Assembly (NCBI RefSeq): GCF_004358095.2
Contig: NZ_SMZJ02000014.1
Span: forward strand, 1 to 50,199
DNA length: 50,199 nucleotides
Direction: 5' to 3'
From: Seonamhaeicola sediminis
GTDB taxonomy: Bacteria > Bacteroidota > Bacteroidia > Flavobacteriales > Flavobacteriaceae
A program made the translations under genes and the position numbers. This document shows, piece by piece, positions 30,438 through 39,671 of the stretch; position 1 is the stretch's first letter; each line of letters begins with the position of its first letter. A model generated the notes under the pieces. That model did not search any database. It saw nothing but the letters and a program-made list of their open reading frames with translations, and had not been told where the DNA came from.

Positions 30438-32546
30438 ATGCGCAGTGCTTTTTACTTAGCTGCTTTTTTAGCTTTCCTTCTTATTTTTAACTGTCAACAA
30501 AATTCTAGTTATAAGCCTAAAGATTATTCAACTTGGAGATCATACCAAGGTGGACCAGATAGAAATCAGTATTCTACATTATCAGAAATCACATTAGATA
30601 ATGTTACTAAGTTAAAAGTAGCTTGGACCTACGAGTCACCAGATTATGGACAAATGCAAATGAATCCCATTGTCATTGATACTATTCTGTATGGTGTTAC
30701 TTCAAGACTTAGAGCCATTGCTTTGCACTCTGCAACAGGAAAGGAAATTTGGAGATTTGGTGATTCGTTAAATTTAAGAGCCTCAACCAGCAGAGGAGTT
30801 TCTTATTGGGAGAAAGGATATGATAAACGCATATTATATACTTCTGGACCGTATTTATATGCACTTGATGCCTTAACAGGAAGGTCTATTGAAAGCTTTG
30901 GCGATAACGGAAAAGTAAACCTAAGTAGTGGTTTAGGTGAAATTACCACGGGTAGTTTTCTTGTCTCCAATACACCAGGTACCGTATACAAGGATATTAT
31001 TGTCATGCCTATTCGTGTTCCTGAAGATATTGGGGCTCTGCCAGGAAATATTATGGCGTTTAATATTATTACAGGTAAGTTGGAATGGGTTTTTAATACA
31101 ATTCCACTTCCATACCAAGAAGGTATTGAAACTTGGGAAGACAAAAATCCCCATTCAAACCCTTTGATTGGCGCAGGTAATAATTGGAGCGGTATGGCTT
31201 TAGATGAAAAACGCGGTATTATTTACATTCCAACAGGTTCGGCTTCCCCTGATTTTTATGGCGGTGTTCGCAAAGGAGACAATTTATTTACAGATTGCCT
31301 GCTAGCTTTGGATGTTAATACTGGAAAGAGACTTTGGCATTTTCAAATGGTACATCATGATTTATGGGATAGAGATCCTCCAACACCACCCAATTTAATT
31401 ACGATTACTAGAGAAGGTAAAAAGATACCCGCAGTTTCTCAATCAACAAAACAGGGATATGTTTATGTCTTTAATCGAGTTACTGGAGAGCCTCTATTTG
31501 ATATTGAAGAAATACCAGTGCCTGTTTCAACTTTAGATGGTGAAGAGGCCTCAAAAACACAACCCATTCCTGTAAAGCCAAAACCTTTTGCAAGACAGTC
31601 AACGGAACTAACAGATGAAGATATAAGTCCGTATGCCGATAACAGAGAAGAACTTTTAGAGCTTTTGAAACATTCGGATAGAAGATTATATGCGCCACCG
31701 AGTTTAGACCCCATGATTCTGTTCCCTGGATTGGATGGTGCTGCAGAGTGGGGCGGAACTGCTGCAGATCCCGAAGAAGGTGTTATTTACATAAACTCTC
31801 AAGAAGCACCATGGGTTATTCAAATGAAGGAGAATGATAACTCAGTGAAAAACTTTCCCTTAGGGAAACAAACCTATATGCAATACTGTGTTACTTGTCA
31901 TCAAGAAGATAAAAGCGGGGTGGTTCAAAGTGGTTATCCCTCTTTAATAAATTTAAAAAGTAAAACATCAAAAAACGAAGTAGCTCAGTTAATAAAAACA
32001 GGTAAGGGTATGATGACCGGATTTCCTCATATTCCAGCCAAAGAAAAGGAAGCTTTAATGCATTTCTTGTTTAATGAACCAGATACTATTATGCCTAAGA
32101 ATCCAAAAATTACGTATCCTTTGGCTTATAAATACGCTGGTTATAAGCGTTTTTTAGATAGCAAGGGAAGACCTGCTATTTCACCACCTTGGGGCACTAT
32201 GCACTCCATAGACTTAAATACAGGTAATTTCAAATGGTCAATTGTATTAGGAGATACACCAGAACTAAAGGCAAAAGGATATCCACAAACGGGATGTGAG
32301 AATTATGGAGGCCCCATAGTTACTCAAAACGGGTTACTCTTTATTGGAGCGACAAAGGATGGCTATTTCAGGGCATTTAATAAGTTTACAGGTGAATTGT
32401 TGTGGGAGTACAAATTACCCGCAGCTGCTTTTGCTACCCCGGCTATGTATCAAGTTAATGGCAAGCAGTATATAGCAATAGCCTGTGGAGGCGAAAAACT
32501 AGGAACACCAATTGGTAATAAAATAGTAGCATTTTCATTAAATTAA
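30438..32546 (+). CDS. PQQ-dependent dehydrogenase with internal cytochrome c domain
   Basis: This is a quinoprotein of the membrane-bound glucose/alcohol dehydrogenase propeller group, which oxidises a sugar or alcohol outside the cytoplasm using PQQ. The 702-residue product starts with a lipoprotein-like signal ending at C19 (LLIFNC). The propeller carries the family motif MVHHDLWDRD with H306, H307, D308. A c-type haem site CVTCH (C484, C487, H488) lies inside the propeller sequence, with M525/M526 as candidate sixth ligand. The last blades follow it. Haem would pass electrons to the respiratory chain. No PQQ biosynthesis gene is in the window. The substrate is unknown. Confidence 0.9.
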   Translation: MRSAFYLAAFLAFLLIFNCQQNSSYKPKDYSTWRSYQGGPDRNQYSTLSEITLDNVTKLKVAWTYESPDYGQMQMNPIVIDTILYGVTSRLRAIALHSATGKEIWRFGDSLNLRASTSRGVSYWEKGYDKRILYTSGPYLYALDALTGRSIESFGDNGKVNLSSGLGEITTGSFLVSNTPGTVYKDIIVMPIRVPEDIGALPGNIMAFNIITGKLEWVFNTIPLPYQEGIETWEDKNPHSNPLIGAGNNWSGMALDEKRGIIYIPTGSASPDFYGGVRKGDNLFTDCLLALDVNTGKRLWHFQMVHHDLWDRDPPTPPNLITITREGKKIPAVSQSTKQGYVYVFNRVTGEPLFDIEEIPVPVSTLDGEEASKTQPIPVKPKPFARQSTELTDEDISPYADNREELLELLKHSDRRLYAPPSLDPMILFPGLDGAAEWGGTAADPEEGVIYINSQEAPWVIQMKENDNSVKNFPLGKQTYMQYCVTCHQEDKSGVVQSGYPSLINLKSKTSKNEVAQLIKTGKGMMTGFPHIPAKEKEALMHFLFNEPDTIMPKNPKITYPLAYKYAGYKRFLDSKGRPAISPPWGTMHSIDLNTGNFKWSIVLGDTPELKAKGYPQTGCENYGGPIVTQNGLLFIGATKDGYFRAFNKFTGELLWEYKLPAAAFATPAMYQVNGKQYIAIACGGEKLGTPIGNKIVAFSLN

Positions 32547-32596: not shown

Positions 32597-33487
32597 TTAA
32601 ATCACAGGTCTTATATCTACAGCTACTTTCATCTTATTTTTCCCCGTACTGTAAATAACACCTTTTAATGGCGGAACATCATAATAATCTCTACCATGAG
32701 AAATTATTATGTGTTGATTTGAAGGTATCTGGTTATTAGTTGGGTCAAAATCCACCCATCCAAAATAGGGTATAAACATAGAAAACCAAGCATGAGAAGC
32801 ATCTGTACCAATAAGTTTTTCTTTACCAGGCGGTGGTAGTGTTTCAATATAACCACTTACATAACGGGCAGGTAAACCAACAGAGCGCACACAGGCAATG
32901 GCTATTTGCGCAAAGTCTTGGCAAACGCCTTTTTTAAGTTTCATAACATCATGAATGGGTGTGGCTACATTTGTAACTTCAGCATTAAATTCAAAATCGG
33001 TATAAATACGCTGCATTAATTCAAACGCCGCTTCAAAAATTGATCTATTTGGTTGAAAAGAAACTTCAGCATAAGCTTTGATATTTGATGTAATATTAGC
33101 AACCAAAACAGATTCTAAGCAAAACTGTTTTACATGAAGTATTTCAGTTGAATTACTTTTTAATTCCAACAAGGCTTGTTGCAAAGTAATTTGTTGAGCA
33201 GCTGGGTTATTATAAATACTGGATACTGTACTAACCTCTTTTAAAATTTTACTACTGGCGATTACCTTTAATTTTGAATGTTGTTTTTGAATAGAAAATC
33301 TTGTGACAGTGTTTCCAAAAAAATCAATTTTCTCTGAAATTTCTTCGGGAATAGGTGTAATGTCTAAATGATAATCTAATAATGTTTGACCTGCAACTTC
33401 CTTAGGCTTAAGAGTGGCTATATTATGACAAAATGATACACCATGCTCGTAATTATAGGTAGTAGTATGTGAAACTTGATAAATCAT
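32597..33487 (-). CDS. transglutaminase-like protein with beta-sandwich N-terminal domain
   Basis: The 296-residue product has the N-terminal bacterial transglutaminase-like domain (about 1-85) and a transglutaminase/protease core (about 150-260). The triad is complete: C189 in KGVCQDFA, H232 in DASHAWF and D248 in WVDFDPT. There is no signal peptide, so it is probably cytoplasmic. In this family the enzyme is predicted to hydrolyse or form amide bonds in peptides. It is the last gene of the operon. Its ATG directly abuts the TAA of the ATP-grasp/alpha-E gene with no base between, implying coupled translation. Confidence 0.9.
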   Translation of the reverse strand: MIYQVSHTTTYNYEHGVSFCHNIATLKPKEVAGQTLLDYHLDITPIPEEISEKIDFFGNTVTRFSIQKQHSKLKVIASSKILKEVSTVSSIYNNPAAQQITLQQALLELKSNSTEILHVKQFCLESVLVANITSNIKAYAEVSFQPNRSIFEAAFELMQRIYTDFEFNAEVTNVATPIHDVMKLKKGVCQDFAQIAIACVRSVGLPARYVSGYIETLPPPGKEKLIGTDASHAWFSMFIPYFGWVDFDPTNNQIPSNQHIIISHGRDYYDVPPLKGVIYSTGKNKMKVAVDIRPVI

Positions 33488-36046
33488 TTATGCCAATGGA
33501 AAGTTTTGATTAACCAATTGTTTTTGTTGGTAGGCATGATTAAAATAAGTATCAGAAAGAGTAATACTACTTTTGTGTAATAAATTGCTAAGTTCCGATA
33601 AGACATCATCAAGATTTTGACGTAGAGTTTTTGTATTGTTTAGCTCTAGTAAATTAGTAATATCTAGGTTTTCTATAATTTTTATAGACTCAGAAATATG
33701 TAAACTATAATAGTTATTCCCTGAATTAGTTTCAGATTGTGGAAGTTTACGTATGTCTTTTTGAATACGTTTAAATTGGTAATGGAGTGATTTTGCGTAT
33801 TCTGTATCAAGCATAACTAAACGAATAACGTTTTCTACACTTAAATAAGAGCGATAACTGTACCTGTAAATATTTAGACTTTCATGACTTGTTAAAAACG
33901 ATTCCAGAATTTCATATTGCAATTGCTCAGAGTAATTAAAAACCAACAGAGCTCTTAGTTTTGCAATATGCATCATAGCTTGTTCTGTTTGTAAACCAAT
34001 AAAGTATAATAAAAGCCCTTGACTTACTAATATACTCTCTTCTATAAGCCCCATAAAAGCTATAAGCCTTGTTATGATACGATCTAATAATTTGGAAAGT
34101 TCAGAAATAGAATGTGTTTCGTTCTCTTTAAATTTATTCCATAATTTCTTTATGCTATCAAAAACACGCCACATGTCTCTAGACCATAAGTTACGTAATG
34201 AATAGTAAGCGTGGTTAAAACTAGAAAGTGTTTGTGCAAAACTACCTATACGGTTTTCATCTAAGAGCAAAGACAAAATTTCTTTTAGTGGGTCTTGTAA
34301 CGTTTTTTCAGAATTTTTACCTACAAATCCTGGAAATGTTGAAGTAATATTAGTTACAGATTTATATAGATAAACTAAACTGCGTGATTCTGAATTTTGA
34401 TTGTTATATTGTTCATTATTCATTCGGTTTAAAACCATCCGTAGGTAACGAGCAGTTGTAAGTGCTCTACCTAAATATCTTCCAGACCAATATAAGTTTT
34501 CGGCTGTGTTACTTGGTAAATCATTTACATTTGACAGCGATATTTTATTATTATTGTTCCAGGAATAACTCTGAATACTGTTTTGAAATTCATCTGAGAT
34601 AATCCAAAAATCTTTACTTATGCCACCACGTTGATTAGATACAAACAGGTTTTCTCTTTCTGCAGCTACCCTTACCAAACCACCTGGCATAACGTTGTAT
34701 GAGTGCTTATTTGCAATAGCAAATGTTCTACACATAACCTTTCTGGGTTCTAAAGTACCATTAAAAAAATCTGGAGCTGTAGAAAACGAAATTTTTTCTT
34801 GTGCTACAAACTTATAGGGGTTTAATAGTATTTCAGCTCTTAAATTATTGAGAGACAAATCATCTAAAAATTCACAAAAATGAAGGTATTCTCTATTGGA
34901 GCGGTCAATGTTTTTTATTACAAATTCTCGCATATTATTGAGCACATAGTTACGTTCTCTTTCTTGTCCGCACCACCAAGAAGCAATTTGTGGTAATATC
35001 AAATCTTCATTAAAGAAGTAATTGCAAATGCCATTCATAAAAGGTATTAAACCAGAGTTTTCTAGTACGCCAGCGCCAATAGGGTTAACAATAACAACTT
35101 GATTATTTCTTACTACTTCTAGTAAACCTGCAACTCCTAAATAGGAATCTTCTCTTAATTCTAGAGGATCCATAAAGGCATCGTCAACACGTTTTATAAT
35201 AACATCAACTTGCTTAAGCGCTTTTAGGGTTTTCATCCATACTTTTCCGTTTCTAACTACAAGGTCATTTCCGGTAACTAATGGATATCCCAGAAAAGAT
35301 GCCATATAGGCATGGTCAAAATATGTTTCGTTTAAGGGGCCCGGTGTTAAAATAACAATATTGGGGTTTGTTACGTTATTTGGCGCCGAATCAATTAACA
35401 TTTGATTAAACTCATCAAAAAATTGTGTGGGTTGTTTAACATTGATGTCTTTGAACAGATCAGGCATCATTCTGCTAAGTGAATACCTGTTTTCTAAGGC
35501 ATATCCCATTCCAGAAGGAGCTTGAGTTCTATCATTAACTACCCACATACGTCCGTCGGGTCCACGTGCTAAGTCAGCAGAATATATTAATAAATGTTTT
35601 GATGTATTATACTGAATTTGATCACATTGTCTTAAAAAACCTCTATGTCCATAAATAACTTCGGGAGGAACAATGCCACTAGAGACAAGTTCTCTTTTAC
35701 CATAAACATCTTTTAAAACAAGATTTAGTAATTCAGATCTTTGAGTAATACCACGTTCTATAGTTGCCCATTCATTTTGGTGAATTAAAAAAGGTACGAT
35801 GTTTAATCGCCAAGAGCGATGCATTCCTTTAGGGTCGTTATACACATTATATGTAACCCCATTTTCTTCTAAAAGCCAATTTATTTCGTTTTGCTTCTCT
35901 ATTAATATCTGGTTTCCGTATTGGGTTAAATTTTTTAGTAATTTTTCCCAATTAGGATTAATAGATAAATCAGATTTCAAAACTTCATCGTAATTTTTGA
36001 AATCGGAAAAATAATTTTGAAATAGTATGTTGGAATGCATTGGCAT
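33488..36046 (-). CDS. circularly permuted ATP-grasp / alpha-E fusion protein
   Basis: The 852-residue product joins two proteins that are often separate genes. Residues ~60-485 are a circularly permuted type 2 ATP-grasp (DUF404/DUF407), with the motifs ARGPDGRMWVVNDRTQAP (160-177), PGPLNETYFDHAYMA (235-249), VIIKRVDDAFMDPLEL (282-297) and NPIGAGVLENSGLIPF (321-336). Residues ~510-835 are an alpha-E domain (DUF403), starting LPSNTAENLYWSGRYLGRA, all helical. ATP-grasp enzymes form amide bonds using ATP, so a peptide-ligase role is predicted; the substrates are unknown. It starts 3 bases after the DUF2126 gene and abuts the second transglutaminase. Confidence 0.92.
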   Translation of the reverse strand: MPMHSNILFQNYFSDFKNYDEVLKSDLSINPNWEKLLKNLTQYGNQILIEKQNEINWLLEENGVTYNVYNDPKGMHRSWRLNIVPFLIHQNEWATIERGITQRSELLNLVLKDVYGKRELVSSGIVPPEVIYGHRGFLRQCDQIQYNTSKHLLIYSADLARGPDGRMWVVNDRTQAPSGMGYALENRYSLSRMMPDLFKDINVKQPTQFFDEFNQMLIDSAPNNVTNPNIVILTPGPLNETYFDHAYMASFLGYPLVTGNDLVVRNGKVWMKTLKALKQVDVIIKRVDDAFMDPLELREDSYLGVAGLLEVVRNNQVVIVNPIGAGVLENSGLIPFMNGICNYFFNEDLILPQIASWWCGQERERNYVLNNMREFVIKNIDRSNREYLHFCEFLDDLSLNNLRAEILLNPYKFVAQEKISFSTAPDFFNGTLEPRKVMCRTFAIANKHSYNVMPGGLVRVAAERENLFVSNQRGGISKDFWIISDEFQNSIQSYSWNNNNKISLSNVNDLPSNTAENLYWSGRYLGRALTTARYLRMVLNRMNNEQYNNQNSESRSLVYLYKSVTNITSTFPGFVGKNSEKTLQDPLKEILSLLLDENRIGSFAQTLSSFNHAYYSLRNLWSRDMWRVFDSIKKLWNKFKENETHSISELSKLLDRIITRLIAFMGLIEESILVSQGLLLYFIGLQTEQAMMHIAKLRALLVFNYSEQLQYEILESFLTSHESLNIYRYSYRSYLSVENVIRLVMLDTEYAKSLHYQFKRIQKDIRKLPQSETNSGNNYYSLHISESIKIIENLDITNLLELNNTKTLRQNLDDVLSELSNLLHKSSITLSDTYFNHAYQQKQLVNQNFPLA

Positions 36047-36049
36047 TGT

Positions 36050-39000
36050 CTACTTCTTTCTTAAATCTAAAGTAATAGGAAATTCATTATTAATCTTCAA
36101 TTCTTTGTATTTAAATTGCTTTGGATTAATTTGTTTTTTAATGTTTTTAAATTCCTCTTTACTTATCATGTCATTTTTATCTGGGGCAATATCACCTTGT
36201 GTATGATTAAAATTCCAAAAACGATTTATTCTTCTGGATTCGGCCTCTAAACTATTAATAGGAAAGGACTCATATGAACGTCCTCCCGGATGTGCTACAA
36301 AATAAGTACATCCTCCAATAGAGCACCTGTTCCAAGTATCAACAACATCAAAAACTAAAGGCGCATCTACGCCTATTGTAGGATGCAAAGCAGAATAAGG
36401 GTTCCAGGCTTTATAACGGATACCGGCAACAAATTCACCTTTAACATCGGTTGGTTTTAAAGGTATTTTTACACCATTACAAGTTACAATATATCTTTCG
36501 TTAGTAAAATTAGAAACTTTAATTTGAATGCGTTCCAGAGATGAATCTACATATCTGGCAGTACCACCACCGCTCATTTCTTCACCTAAAACATTCCAAG
36601 GTTCTATAGCTGCGCGCAGTTCTATATGAATATCATTTATAGTGACCATACCGTGTAGTGGAAACCTGAATTCGAAAAATGGATTAAACCAGTCTTCTTT
36701 GAAAGGGTACCCTGCTTTATTAAGTTTGTTTACAACATCATTTATGTCTTTTCTAACAAAGTGTTCTATTAAAAATTTATCATGTAACTCTGTTCCCCAA
36801 CGCACTAAATCATGTTCGTAAGGCTTTTTCCAAAACCAAGCTACAAGTGTACGGACTAGTAAATTTTGCATTAAACTCATTTGAGCATGCGGTGGCATAT
36901 CAAAAGCACGTAATTCTAGAATTCCCAGTCTGCCTGAAGCGGAATCTGGTGAGTATAACTTGTCTATACAGAATTCAGCTCTATGAGTGTTTCCTGTTAA
37001 ATCGGTTAATAAATGTCTAAATAACCTATCAGTTAACCAAAAAGGTACCTCACCATTCTTTGGTATTTTGCTAAAGGCTATTTCTAGTTCGTAAAGGTTT
37101 TCCATACGAGCTTCGTCTATTCGAGGGGCTTGACTTGTGGCTCCTACAAAAGCTCCTGAAAAGAGGTATGATAACCCCGGATGATGTTGCCAAAACGTTA
37201 GTAAACTACGCAATAAACTTGGTTTTCTAAGAAGCGGGCTATCAGCAGGAGTAATACCTCCAATAGTAACATGATTCCCGCCACCAGTACCTGTATGTTT
37301 ACCATCAATCATAAATTTTTCAGTACCTAAACGTGATAACTTAGCATGTTTATAGAGTGCTAAGGTGTTATAGGTTAATTCACTCCAGTTCTCTGTAGGT
37401 TGAACATTAACTTCAATTACACCAGGGTCTGGAGTAATTTTTAGTGATTGTAAGCGATTATCAAAAGGTGGATTGTAGCCTTCAAAAACAACAGGAATAT
37501 CTAAAGCTTTTGAAGTAGCCTCAATAGCAGTTACCAAATCTAAGTAATATTCTATAGCATCTAATGGCGGTAAAAAGATATGAAGTTTATCATCCCTAAT
37601 TTCAATGCACAAGGCGGTACGTATAAAATAATTAACTTTTGAAGGTTTTTTTTGCTGTGTAAAACGTTTTTCAACTGTTTCAAAATAGGTTGGTAATTTG
37701 TCTTGTTTCGAAAATTGATCTGGTTGATAAACGGGGAATTCTTTCTGTTTAGGCTTTTGAATTAGTGAATTTAGAGGTAATCGTAAACCAACAGGGGAGT
37801 TCCCTGGTAATAGAAACAAATGTTCTCTTCTAAATGTCCATTCACAACTATGCCATGTACCTTTAGAGTTGTTAAGTGGCAACACATAACCTACAGGTTT
37901 TGTGGTCCCTTCTTTTAAAATATTTTTAAGTTTGTCTTTTACCAATAAGTTACCATCTTCCTTTGTGGGGTCTATATCAATAGGCATTTGACCTTCTTGC
38001 CACAAGAAGTAAAAGCTATCCTCATAGGTGGGTTTTATATATTTTTCTGAAACACCTAAATATTTGGTTAATGTTTTAAGAAACTTTTTATCAGCATCTT
38101 TTGGTAATTTTTTAGCTTCCGAAAAAAGCGATAGCAGCTTTTTGTTTTGCCAAATAGGCTTACCATCTTTTCGCCAACAAATCTCAATAGACCAACGGGG
38201 TAGTGGTTCACCAGGATACCATTTACCTTGTGCTTGATGCAAAACACCACCTTTGCCAAATTCATCATATAATCTAGCTGAAAAATTTTTAGCAAGCTCT
38301 CGTTTGTGAGGGCCATCGGCATCTGTATTCCATTGTGCAGACTCCATATCATCAATAGATACAAACGTAGGTTCACCTCCCATGGTTAATCTTACATCGC
38401 CTTTTTCTAATTCTTCATCAACTTTAAAACCAAGATTGTAAATAGCGTTCCACTGTTCTTCGGTATAGGGTTTGGTAACTCTTGGCGATTCAAAAATGCG
38501 CTTTACTGTATTTTCATAGAAGAATTCTGTTTCGCAAATATCAGTCATTCCGGTTACAGGCGCAGCACTTTCAAAGGATGGTGTACAAGCTAATGGAATA
38601 TGGCCTTCACCAGCCAAAAGTCCAGAGGTGGCATCAAAACCAATCCATCCAGCTCCTGGAACGTAAACTTCAGCCCAAGCATGTAAATCTGTAAAATCTT
38701 CTTCAGGACCTGATGGACCATCTAACGATTTTTCATCAGATTTTAATTGCACCAAATAGCCAGAAACAAATCTTGCTCCAAATCCTAAATGCCTCATTAC
38801 TTGTACAAATAACCAAGCGTAATCTCTACAAGATCCAACTTTAGAACTGAGTGTTTCTTCACAGGTTTGAACGCCTGGGTCTAAACGAATACTGTAATTT
38901 AAGAATTCATTTATTTTTCGATTAATGTCTATTAGGAAAAAAATAGTTTTTCTAGGAGAAAGATCAACAGTTTTTAGAAATGCTTTTAAAAGAGGTCCGT

Positions 39001-39367
39001 GGTCTGTTATTTCTAAATATGGTAACAGTTCTTTTTTTACAGTATCTGTGTACTGAAACGGAAAATCTTCGGCGTATTTTTCAACAAAAAAATCAAACGG
39101 ATTAATAGTTTTTAAATCGGCTATAATTTCAACATCAACACTAAGCTCTTTCGTTTTTTCAGGAAATGTTAATCGTGCCAAATAGTTTCCAAAAGGGTCT
39201 TGCTGCCAATTAAAAAAATGATTTTCTGGCTTTATTTTAATTGAGTAGGCTTCAATGGGAGTTCTGCTGTGGGGAGCAGGTCTTAATCTAAATATATGAG
39301 GAGATAGAGAAACAAGTCTATCATACTTGTATTTTGTTTTATGAGAAATAACAATTTTCAATGCCAT
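36050..39367 (-). CDS. transglutaminase-DUF2126 fusion protein
   Basis: The 1105-residue product, the usual family length, starts with a transglutaminase unit: beta N-domain (1-85) and core with C180 in VGSCRDYAW, H229 in LHAWAE and D245 in IGFDATSG. The remaining ~800 residues are DUF2126, which comparative genomics links to glutamate-cysteine-ligase-like (GCS2) amidoligases. Candidate active-site stretches are IEVNVQPTENW (E652, N654), GTGGGNHVTIGG (H699) and ILELRAFDMPPH (E818, R820). No signal peptide is seen. It is the first gene of a three-gene operon. The product pathway is not experimentally defined, to my knowledge. Confidence 0.92.
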   Translation of the reverse strand: MALKIVISHKTKYKYDRLVSLSPHIFRLRPAPHSRTPIEAYSIKIKPENHFFNWQQDPFGNYLARLTFPEKTKELSVDVEIIADLKTINPFDFFVEKYAEDFPFQYTDTVKKELLPYLEITDHGPLLKAFLKTVDLSPRKTIFFLIDINRKINEFLNYSIRLDPGVQTCEETLSSKVGSCRDYAWLFVQVMRHLGFGARFVSGYLVQLKSDEKSLDGPSGPEEDFTDLHAWAEVYVPGAGWIGFDATSGLLAGEGHIPLACTPSFESAAPVTGMTDICETEFFYENTVKRIFESPRVTKPYTEEQWNAIYNLGFKVDEELEKGDVRLTMGGEPTFVSIDDMESAQWNTDADGPHKRELAKNFSARLYDEFGKGGVLHQAQGKWYPGEPLPRWSIEICWRKDGKPIWQNKKLLSLFSEAKKLPKDADKKFLKTLTKYLGVSEKYIKPTYEDSFYFLWQEGQMPIDIDPTKEDGNLLVKDKLKNILKEGTTKPVGYVLPLNNSKGTWHSCEWTFRREHLFLLPGNSPVGLRLPLNSLIQKPKQKEFPVYQPDQFSKQDKLPTYFETVEKRFTQQKKPSKVNYFIRTALCIEIRDDKLHIFLPPLDAIEYYLDLVTAIEATSKALDIPVVFEGYNPPFDNRLQSLKITPDPGVIEVNVQPTENWSELTYNTLALYKHAKLSRLGTEKFMIDGKHTGTGGGNHVTIGGITPADSPLLRKPSLLRSLLTFWQHHPGLSYLFSGAFVGATSQAPRIDEARMENLYELEIAFSKIPKNGEVPFWLTDRLFRHLLTDLTGNTHRAEFCIDKLYSPDSASGRLGILELRAFDMPPHAQMSLMQNLLVRTLVAWFWKKPYEHDLVRWGTELHDKFLIEHFVRKDINDVVNKLNKAGYPFKEDWFNPFFEFRFPLHGMVTINDIHIELRAAIEPWNVLGEEMSGGGTARYVDSSLERIQIKVSNFTNERYIVTCNGVKIPLKPTDVKGEFVAGIRYKAWNPYSALHPTIGVDAPLVFDVVDTWNRCSIGGCTYFVAHPGGRSYESFPINSLEAESRRINRFWNFNHTQGDIAPDKNDMISKEEFKNIKKQINPKQFKYKELKINNEFPITLDLRKK

Positions 39368-39671
39368 ATAACGGGTTGTTTTTTAACCTATTTTTTATTT
39401 GAAAAGTACTAATAATAAACTGTTAAGACTAAATTGAATAGTATTATTCTCATCAAAATTTTAATAATTATGATTTTGCAAATAAACAGAAACCTTGAAT
39501 ATGAAATTATTAAATATTAGATTTTATATTTAAAACTTACCAACATTTTTCAATAGAAAATATGAATATGCCTTATTGATTATAGACTTGATTTTCTTGC
39601 TCCGCAACCCTAATAAAAGTTGTACGTTTGGTAAGTTCTGGGTGTTTAGTTTTGAATAATTTCAATTTAAA
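39368..39671. other. 304-base intergenic region upstream of the amidoligase operon
   Basis: AT-rich. On the minus strand TACTTTTC (39401-39408) is one base off the -7 consensus and could serve the operon, but I see no -33 partner. A short coding-like minus-strand segment at 39573-39665 is listed separately. No RNA gene or terminator hairpin is evident. Confidence 0.4.
39573..39665 (-). pseudogene. possible gene remnant or very small ORF
   Basis: On the minus strand a TTG (39663-39665) opens a 30-codon frame ending TAA (39573-39575). Its composition, including HPELTKRTTFIRVAEQENQV, looks more like real protein than the flanking DNA. There is an in-frame TAG two codons upstream of the TTG. I do not recognise the family. 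It could be the C-terminal stub of a decayed gene, or chance. Confidence 0.2.

Follow-up and report, generated by a model that had tools for sequence, protein, structure and literature searches.

In 2009, Iyer et al. reportedly predicted a system composed of a circularly permuted ATP-grasp enzyme (CP-ATP-grasp), a glutamine synthetase (GS)-like ligase, an alpha-E protein and an NTN hydrolase. The subject of this work is a cluster of a known and widespread kind that combines the families DUF2126, CP-ATP-grasp, alpha-E and transglutaminase. It lies on the minus strand of a 50,199-nucleotide stretch of Seonamhaeicola sediminis DNA (contig NZ_SMZJ02000014.1, hereafter the window), where three genes form an operon at positions 32597-39367. 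An earlier interpretation made without database searches (the sequence-only reading) had identified an amidoligase-type cluster as predicted by Iyer, Aravind and colleagues, and parts of PMC5666114, PMC6376114 and PMC3597751 cite this prediction in the same way. The kind of cluster and its location were retained from that reading, its assumption of two competent ligases was not, and the second half of the system, on contig C23 of the same genome, had been missed. New here is that the ATP-grasp of the operon is, judging by its residues, probably a pseudo-ligase and that an intact one is encoded elsewhere in the genome. The operon is read here, with a probability of roughly 0.6, as one half, the accessory one with DUF2126, of a cytoplasmic amide-bond system in two parts.

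The window genome shares the circularly permuted ATP-grasp, alpha-E, transglutaminase and DUF2126 families with the system of Iyer et al., and it differs in that no Anbu match was found, the genes are spread over two contigs and the ATP-grasp of the operon is degenerate. It encodes a DUF2126 protein with an N-terminal transglutaminase as well as CP-ATP-grasp and alpha-E, with one ATP-grasp intact. Anbu is described as part of the predicted system in sections of PMC5666114 and PMC6376114. Compared with the Anbu operons of Yersinia bercovieri and Pseudomonas putida (PP_2685-2688), the C23 gene set is the same minus Anbu; what the window operon has beyond such a set is DUF2126 together with the fused pseudo-ligase. 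The Anbu NTN hydrolase that defines such operons was found neither beside the C23 genes nor elsewhere in the window genome, using a model that detects it in 15/198 Bacteroidota and 68/200 Pseudomonadota genomes. In Y. bercovieri, the separate-type ATP-grasp encoded in the Anbu operon releases phosphate from ATP, as stated in a section of PMC6376114. In Burkholderia cenocepacia H111, the same families stand side by side (I35_5080-5083), whereas they are split in the window genome. The structure 3n6x, a 'putative glutathionylspermidine synthase' of Methylobacillus flagellatus, has the same ATP-grasp fold as the fused window protein (Foldseek E 6e-30) and no alpha-E; it keeps the residues of the separate type, which the window protein lacks. 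With pupylation, which combines a GS-fold ligase, a tag and a proteasome-like particle, the likeness is one of analogy; no tag is known, and Anbu has no match here.

The open reading frames (ORFs) bore out the three minus-strand genes with gaps of 3 and 0 bases described by the sequence-only reading. The first (36050-39367) encodes a protein of 1105 amino acids (aa) with Pfam matches to Bact_transglu_N, Transglut_core and DUF2126 (1277 bits, E = 0), in which a transglutaminase-like part (TG; aa 7-246, 38630-39349) is joined to the putative amidoligase domain DUF2126 (PF09899, aa 276-1103, 36059-38542), a predicted GS-like ligase. The second (33488-36046) encodes an 852-aa predicted pseudo-ligase, and its matches to CP_ATPgrasp_2 (482 bits) and Alpha-E (170 bits; aa 510-835, 33542-34519) agree with the proposed fusion of a circularly permuted ATP-grasp to alpha-E. 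The third (32597-33487) encodes another transglutaminase-like protein of 296 aa with Bact_transglu_N and Transglut_core. An NCBIfam scan gave no match. Both Cys-His-Asp triads are intact at the positions given earlier (C180/H229/D245 and C189/H232/D248). Across related loci, 56/56 separate transglutaminases and 85/87 DUF2126-fused ones keep the triad, the remaining two having gaps at the triad columns; proteins were cut to 300 aa before this alignment, and the triad and residue counts were taken from genes of a longest-ORF caller. The observed gene arrangement and the triads are correct and far above chance. None of the N-termini is hydrophobic, and this hydropathy result supports the earlier view that the proteins lack signal peptides and are cytoplasmic. 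A Bacteroidetes promoter motif had no match upstream of the operon.

To assess the fused protein, 49 fused and 42 separate ATP-grasps were aligned, later extended to 54 and 43, with five of the 54 fused proteins coming from outside DUF2126 loci. The separate type keeps Asp156, Glu169, Asn171, Lys374, Gly380, Gly381, Tyr382, Gly383 and Asp434 (C23 numbering) in 43/43 proteins. The equivalents of Glu169, Asn171 and Asp434, the latter belonging to a D-L-R motif, were each present in 42/42 separate proteins versus 0/49 fused ones, and in 0/54 of the larger set; an arginine replaces Asn171 in 47/49. The GGYG loop is absent as well (0/49), with Gly380 and Tyr382 in 0/54 and Gly381 in 19/54, and equivalents of Asp156 and Lys374 are found in 44/54 and 43/54. 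The window protein has D158 and K378, and reads N171-D172-R173 (35528-35536) where separate-type enzymes read E-D-N, with E and N as predicted metal ligands. It further reads S383-N384-R385-E386-Y387 (34886-34900) in place of S-G-G-Y-G, and M438 (34733-34735) in place of the aspartate of the D-L-R motif. The claim that both ligase-type domains are working ligases was thus not upheld, as this ATP-grasp, like 54/54 fused proteins, lacks the metal Glu and Asn, the glycine-rich loop and the DLR Asp expected of an active ATP-grasp ligase.

By motif, Asp318, Glu330 and Asn332 of GspS, residues confirmed in the E. coli gss sequence and taken here to be its metal ligands, are matched by Asp156, Glu169 and Asn171 of the separate type. 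Because hhalign of either ATP-grasp set against the single E. coli GspS sequence gave nothing useful, this correspondence rests on motif reading, a Foldseek match and the ligand numbers of GspS. The model of the fused protein (pLDDT 84) matched, beyond 3n6x, glutathione synthetases of eukaryotes (E 1e-10 at best) and GspS (2io7, 1.5e-5). In the tree, the 54 fused ATP-grasps form a clade split from the 43 separate ones with a support of 1.0, and the window protein, a probable pseudo-ligase, belongs to this paralogous fused clade. Since 43 positions are invariant among 38 fused proteins, the protein is presumably conserved for something besides canonical catalysis. The alpha-E half shows a similar picture. 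An ER motif is present in 40/40 separate alpha-E proteins, and of the 49 aligned fused proteins, 47 have a residue at the position of its Glu, which is Glu in 37 and Gly in 8. The R-E-N-x-R motif seen in the separate type is missing from the fused alpha-E half, and the window copy, with G526-R527 at the ER position, lacks the Glu too; it is filed on this basis as a degenerate alpha-E that still passes the Pfam cut-off.

An intact counterpart is encoded on contig C23, which carries a separate ATP-grasp of 480 aa, a separate alpha-E of 308 aa, in which the Glu-Arg motif is present, and a transglutaminase of 322 aa, the last 33 % identical to the 296-aa window transglutaminase. The ATP-grasp reads D-E-N-K-GGYG-D-R, with all conserved residues in place. 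By its gene content, the window operon is half of a split system whose intact ATP-grasp half is on C23, and we infer that both act in one pathway.

Co-occurrence was analyzed in samples of 198 Bacteroidota and 200 Pseudomonadota genomes, using hypergeometric p values that ignore relatedness. In Bacteroidota, DUF2126 was found in 9 genomes, Anbu in 15 and alpha-E in 77 above the cut-off (78 at E <= 0.001); alpha-E was present in 9/9 DUF2126 genomes (p 1.5e-4), each with a separate-type alpha-E, and in 15/15 Anbu genomes. Of the Pseudomonadota genomes, 63 had DUF2126, 112 had alpha-E and 68 had Anbu; alpha-E was present in 63/63 of the DUF2126 genomes (p 2e-21) and 67/68 of the Anbu genomes. Two or more alpha-E genes were carried by 57/63 DUF2126 genomes versus 6/137 others, and these six are genomes with the fused gene but no DUF2126 match. 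Among 32 DUF2126 genomes chosen from 80 named loci, alpha-E was present in 32, the separate type in 28 and the fused type in 29, and the four without a clear separate-type alpha-E are metagenome-assembled genomes (MAGs). A rule that confines the fused gene to DUF2126 genomes was obeyed in the Bacteroidota sample (6/6 fused) and broken by six Pseudomonadota exceptions; the long open frame in Bacteroidota genome G090 is a separate-type gene and hence no exception.

The gene order in relatives points to the same association. It was compared in 88 DUF2126 loci (80 named), and as many contigs end nearby, the counts are lower bounds: at least 52 loci have the fused gene, at least 42 the separate set, at least 26 both and at least 68 either, and Anbu is present in at least 20. 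These tallies come from a six-frame recount that replaced those of the longest-ORF caller, which had called no DUF2126 in loci L061 and L088 and no genes of interest in L162. The order separate ATP-grasp, alpha-E, TG-DUF2126, fused gene, transglutaminase recurs in Gammaproteobacteria (for example L071, L084 and L090), Desulforhopalus (L095) and a Poribacteria MAG (L064), and the two halves adjoin in two Flavobacteriaceae (L023, L025) and in Reichenbachiella (L054). B. cenocepacia CMCC(B)23006 has the genes in the order separate ATP-grasp, alpha-E, transglutaminase, TG-DUF2126, fused gene, transglutaminase. An IncFII plasmid of Enterobacter roggenkampii (NZ_CP116251.1, L163:7603-16794) carries a five-gene cassette in the recurring order with insertion sequence (IS) elements on both sides and arsC upstream. 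Because of these flanking elements, the five genes can probably travel as a unit. No near copy of the cassette was found on other plasmids or in E. coli genomes, and a DUF2126 protein occurs in 168/72,556 plasmid records, many of them megareplicons. Carriage by phages was rejected with 0 DUF2126-protein matches in 50,697 phage records (E 1e-10), and a role as a defence system with 0/6 proteins matching PADLOC models. In the Bacteroidota loci L017, L018, L019, L087 and L100, TG-DUF2126 and a separate set of ATP-grasp, alpha-E and Anbu genes are oriented divergently, with no fused gene nearby. Each of the L017, L018 and L019 genomes carries only one alpha-E gene, so the pseudo-ligase need not accompany DUF2126.

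The TG-DUF2126 protein of the window is 51-81 % identical to 50 other aligned proteins, the nearest named ones being from Confluentibacter citreus (81 %), Aestuariibaculum marinum (79 %) and Algibacter lectus (78 %). The conserved E/N/H/R stretches noted earlier were recovered as invariant positions in the 51 aligned proteins, namely E332, E652, N654, N698, H699, R749, E752, N793, H795, R796, E798, E818 and R820. The best Foldseek match of its model (pLDDT 80) was the transglutaminase 3isr (E 6e-14), which corresponds to the N-terminal part, followed by other transglutaminases. Below these, the matches listed include several glutamine synthetases and GmaS (gamma-glutamylmethylamide synthetase) with E 0.02-0.1 and probabilities of 0.77-0.99. 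A GS-like fold of DUF2126 is therefore likely but unproven, the modelled structure giving it weak support. GS and GCS families were absent from a loose Pfam scan (E up to 10) of 30 DUF2126 members, and a PDB sequence search gave no convincing match to the domain. A literature search on Rv2566, Rv2567 and Rv2569c, presumably the tuberculosis homologues, gave only unrelated matter.

The cluster probably builds or attaches an amide-linked compound, and the following chemistry and product are our inference. The separate ATP-grasp and alpha-E of C23, with their intact residues, would perform the ATP-grasp step of a shared pathway, in which the ATP-grasp, having a glutathione-synthetase/GspS-like fold, might activate a carboxylate as an acyl phosphate and form a first amide bond. 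DUF2126 as a probable GS-like ligase, with its invariant residues, could form a second one. Because the fused protein has lost its catalytic residues while 43 other positions are invariant, it may have been kept for binding, either as a holder of substrate or product or as a scaffold or regulator of DUF2126 and the active ligase. Counting both loci, there are three transglutaminase-like cysteine enzymes, and these would cut or transfer the amide-linked product. As the core is induced by nitrogen limitation in Proteobacteria, a modification serving nitrogen economy or a storage or scavenging peptide appears the likeliest purpose.

Expression data on these genes come from two proteobacteria. In an ntrC mutant of B. 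cenocepacia H111, PMC5491218 gives 8.2-, 9.4-, 9.4- and 6.0-fold lower expression of I35_5080-5083, listed as DUF404/407 (ATP-grasp), DUF403 (alpha-E), a transglutaminase and a large transglutaminase-domain protein. Because of the gene order in CMCC(B)23006, this large protein is very probably TG-DUF2126. In wild-type P. putida under nitrogen limitation, PP_2686, PP_2687 and PP_2688 rose 12.6-, 11.0- and 14.7-fold, and the Anbu-like PP_2685 only 1.12-fold, in the data cited from PMC7801951; PP_2686 is a transglutaminase, and PP_2687 and PP_2688 are presumably alpha-E and ATP-grasp. In a second data set, PP2685-2687 were 6.6- to 11.1-fold up in the first of two columns, which the table note appears to define as nitrogen versus carbon limitation (PMC3325844, this table). 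A section of PMC5666114 describes Anbu as induced by nitrogen limitation and not by various other conditions.

These data also bear on a possible alternative, tentatively entertained here, in which the system belongs to small-molecule nitrogen metabolism: nitrogen would be stored or scavenged through a gamma-glutamyl-type amide of an amine or an amino acid, which the ligases would form, as GmaS does, and the cysteine enzymes would open. It would fit the B. cenocepacia results, where the NtrC-dependent set includes urea transporters, glnA and glnB beside I35_5080-5083 (PMC5491218, same part), and those for P. putida, where the core was induced together with urea transporter genes (PMC7801951, same data) and a second data set agrees. 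The presence of gamma-glutamylmethylamide synthetase among the Foldseek matches of the DUF2126 model is in line with it. However, three transglutaminase-like enzymes, and a proteasome-like partner elsewhere, suggest a substrate of peptide size. Furthermore, no amine oxidase or transporter was found among the annotated neighbor families, which are 6 of the 29 recurring ones and leave most unannotated.

The neighboring genes are of interest for a second alternative, protein tagging, which is rather unlikely. Here, the ATP-grasp would make a short non-ribosomal peptide, DUF2126 would attach it to proteins, and a transglutaminase, Anbu or the zinc-ribbon metallopeptidase Peptidase_Mx would remove or degrade it. 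Hypotheses of this type have been published for the Anbu operon (sections of PMC6376114 and PMC5666114), and in addition to the loci with Anbu, DUF2126 and Anbu occur together in 34/200 Pseudomonadota genomes (p 6e-5). By sequence, there are two Anbu subtypes, as the Anbu proteins of L017, L018, L087 and L100 are 62-66 % identical to that of L019 and the aligned proteobacterial ones 22-29 %. Peptidase_Mx (PF15887, HExGH intact) is a candidate for a further component: it lies at most seven genes from DUF2126 in at least seven clustered loci (L032:13359-14414, L033:13590-14675, L038:5175-6233, L091:15227-16282, L092:6467-7561, L098:6477-7529, L099:6040-7095), in or near DUF2126 or the separate ATP-grasp and alpha-E genes in both Bacteroidota and Proteobacteria. 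It occurs in 29/200 Pseudomonadota genomes and, at E <= 0.001, in 6/198 Bacteroidota genomes, three of the latter over the cut-off, and the full-length form in 2/198 Bacteroidota genomes, both with DUF2126. On the other hand, no tagged protein is known, neither Anbu nor Peptidase_Mx had a match in the window genome, and 29/63 Pseudomonadota genomes with DUF2126 lack Anbu. Moreover, the part of PMC6376114 concerned describes Y. bercovieri Anbu as inactive towards the peptidase substrates tried and as not binding its operon partners specifically. A fuller version of the tagging idea, and a distinctly improbable one, holds that DUF2126 and the separate ATP-grasp and alpha-E form a nitrogen-starvation tagging machine resembling pupylation and of unrelated origin. 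In it, the GS-fold ligase would attach a non-ribosomal peptide to proteins, the pseudo-ATP-grasp/alpha-E would bind the tag or position the acceptor, and the transglutaminase-like enzymes or, in genomes that have them, Anbu or Peptidase_Mx would remove the tag.

A linked ribosomal precursor peptide, as for ribosomally synthesized and post-translationally modified peptides (RiPPs) or graspetides, was rejected as well within the neighbors and upstream regions covered. The sequence-only reading had proposed a search for a linked small peptide gene, and none emerged: among 727 neighbors of at least 70 aa, families present in at least three loci have no representative below 127 aa. These neighbors come from the longest-ORF caller, which undercounts in GC-rich DNA. 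In the 1.5 kb upstream of the window operon and seven relatives, no conserved short ORF of its own was found; shorter ORFs elsewhere were not clustered. The earlier observation that no dedicated substrate or transporter gene lies beside the operon is consistent with this, as none recurred among the annotated neighbors or the upstream ORFs. A protein of 410-441 aa without Pfam match lies near or beside the genes in eight proteobacterial loci (L036:2692-3999, L039:8463-9785, L044:8710-9966, L049:8575-9879, L065:8767-9996, L066:18648-19886, L072:16817-18055, L080:6656-7906), with 66-74 % identity to the L066 copy. It directly precedes DUF2126 in 6/8 loci and lies between alpha-E and DUF2126 in L065 and L080. 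Upstream of the window operon, a 21-residue stretch (39576-39638) shows an 86 % match to an ORF of 78 aa that L030 has upstream of DUF2126 and that shares 88 % identity with L021 and L022; the stretch is perhaps what is left of the neighbor gene of those relatives. On its other side, a PQQ beta-propeller dehydrogenase with an inserted cytochrome c domain (30438-32546) is convergent with the operon.

It is also doubtful that the fused ATP-grasp has remained catalytic with an altered chemistry, Arg173 and further conserved residues standing in for the metal site. The equivalents of Lys378 (43/49 fused), Arg440 (49/49) and Asp158 (41/49), the predicted glutathione-synthetase-like fold and the 43 invariant columns would suit such an enzyme. 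However, 0/54 fused proteins retain the GGYG loop, the DLR Asp or the Glu and Asn of the metal site, the loop varies even within the fused proteins, and the lysine is missing in all five fused proteins from outside DUF2126 loci. The view implied by the sequence-only reading, that the operon works on its own with its three genes and has no connection to those on C23, is very improbable, since a private system is rejected by the co-occurrence with alpha-E and separate-type genes (28/32 chosen DUF2126 genomes and 9/9 sampled Bacteroidota ones), even if the fused gene lacks a separate set nearby in 26/88 loci and the window genome holds the two apart.

Several points weigh against the operon as the accessory half of a two-part system. 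In the window genome, the two halves lie on different contigs, and we know of no expression link between them in Bacteroidota. A single alpha-E gene is present in 6/63 Pseudomonadota DUF2126 genomes, and the fused gene is not strictly a partner of DUF2126, as it occurs without a DUF2126 match in 6/200 Pseudomonadota genomes. Loci with a fused gene and a transglutaminase in Pseudomonadota genomes without such a match are L122:10889-14174, which also has a separate pair, L124:8557-11906, L125:2033-5322 and L126 (genome G253). That the metal ligands are lost was judged from an alignment with the GspS ligands and not from a ligand-bound structure, and other residues could substitute. The structural check of DUF2126 against GS and GCS2 suggested earlier was divided: Foldseek gave the weak matches described above (E ~0.02-0.1), and hhalign of the DUF2126 profile against GCS2 and GlnA did no better than controls, even when the alignment was doubled to allow for permutation. 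A literature search found no biochemistry for DUF2126 or any fused ATP-grasp. Finally, the rise in P. putida persists in an rpoN mutant (14- to 20-fold), which means that sigma54 dependence is not general, and control by NtrB/NtrC, held likely by the authors, is a putative assignment in the part of PMC7801951 cited.

DUF2126 occurs in 63/200 Pseudomonadota and 9/198 Bacteroidota genomes, yet a literature search found no paper naming it. The distinction between a probable pseudo-ligase in the operon and a presumably working separate enzyme tells which protein to assay and which to delete under nitrogen limitation. A long-standing prediction for this widespread family of clusters thereby becomes testable.

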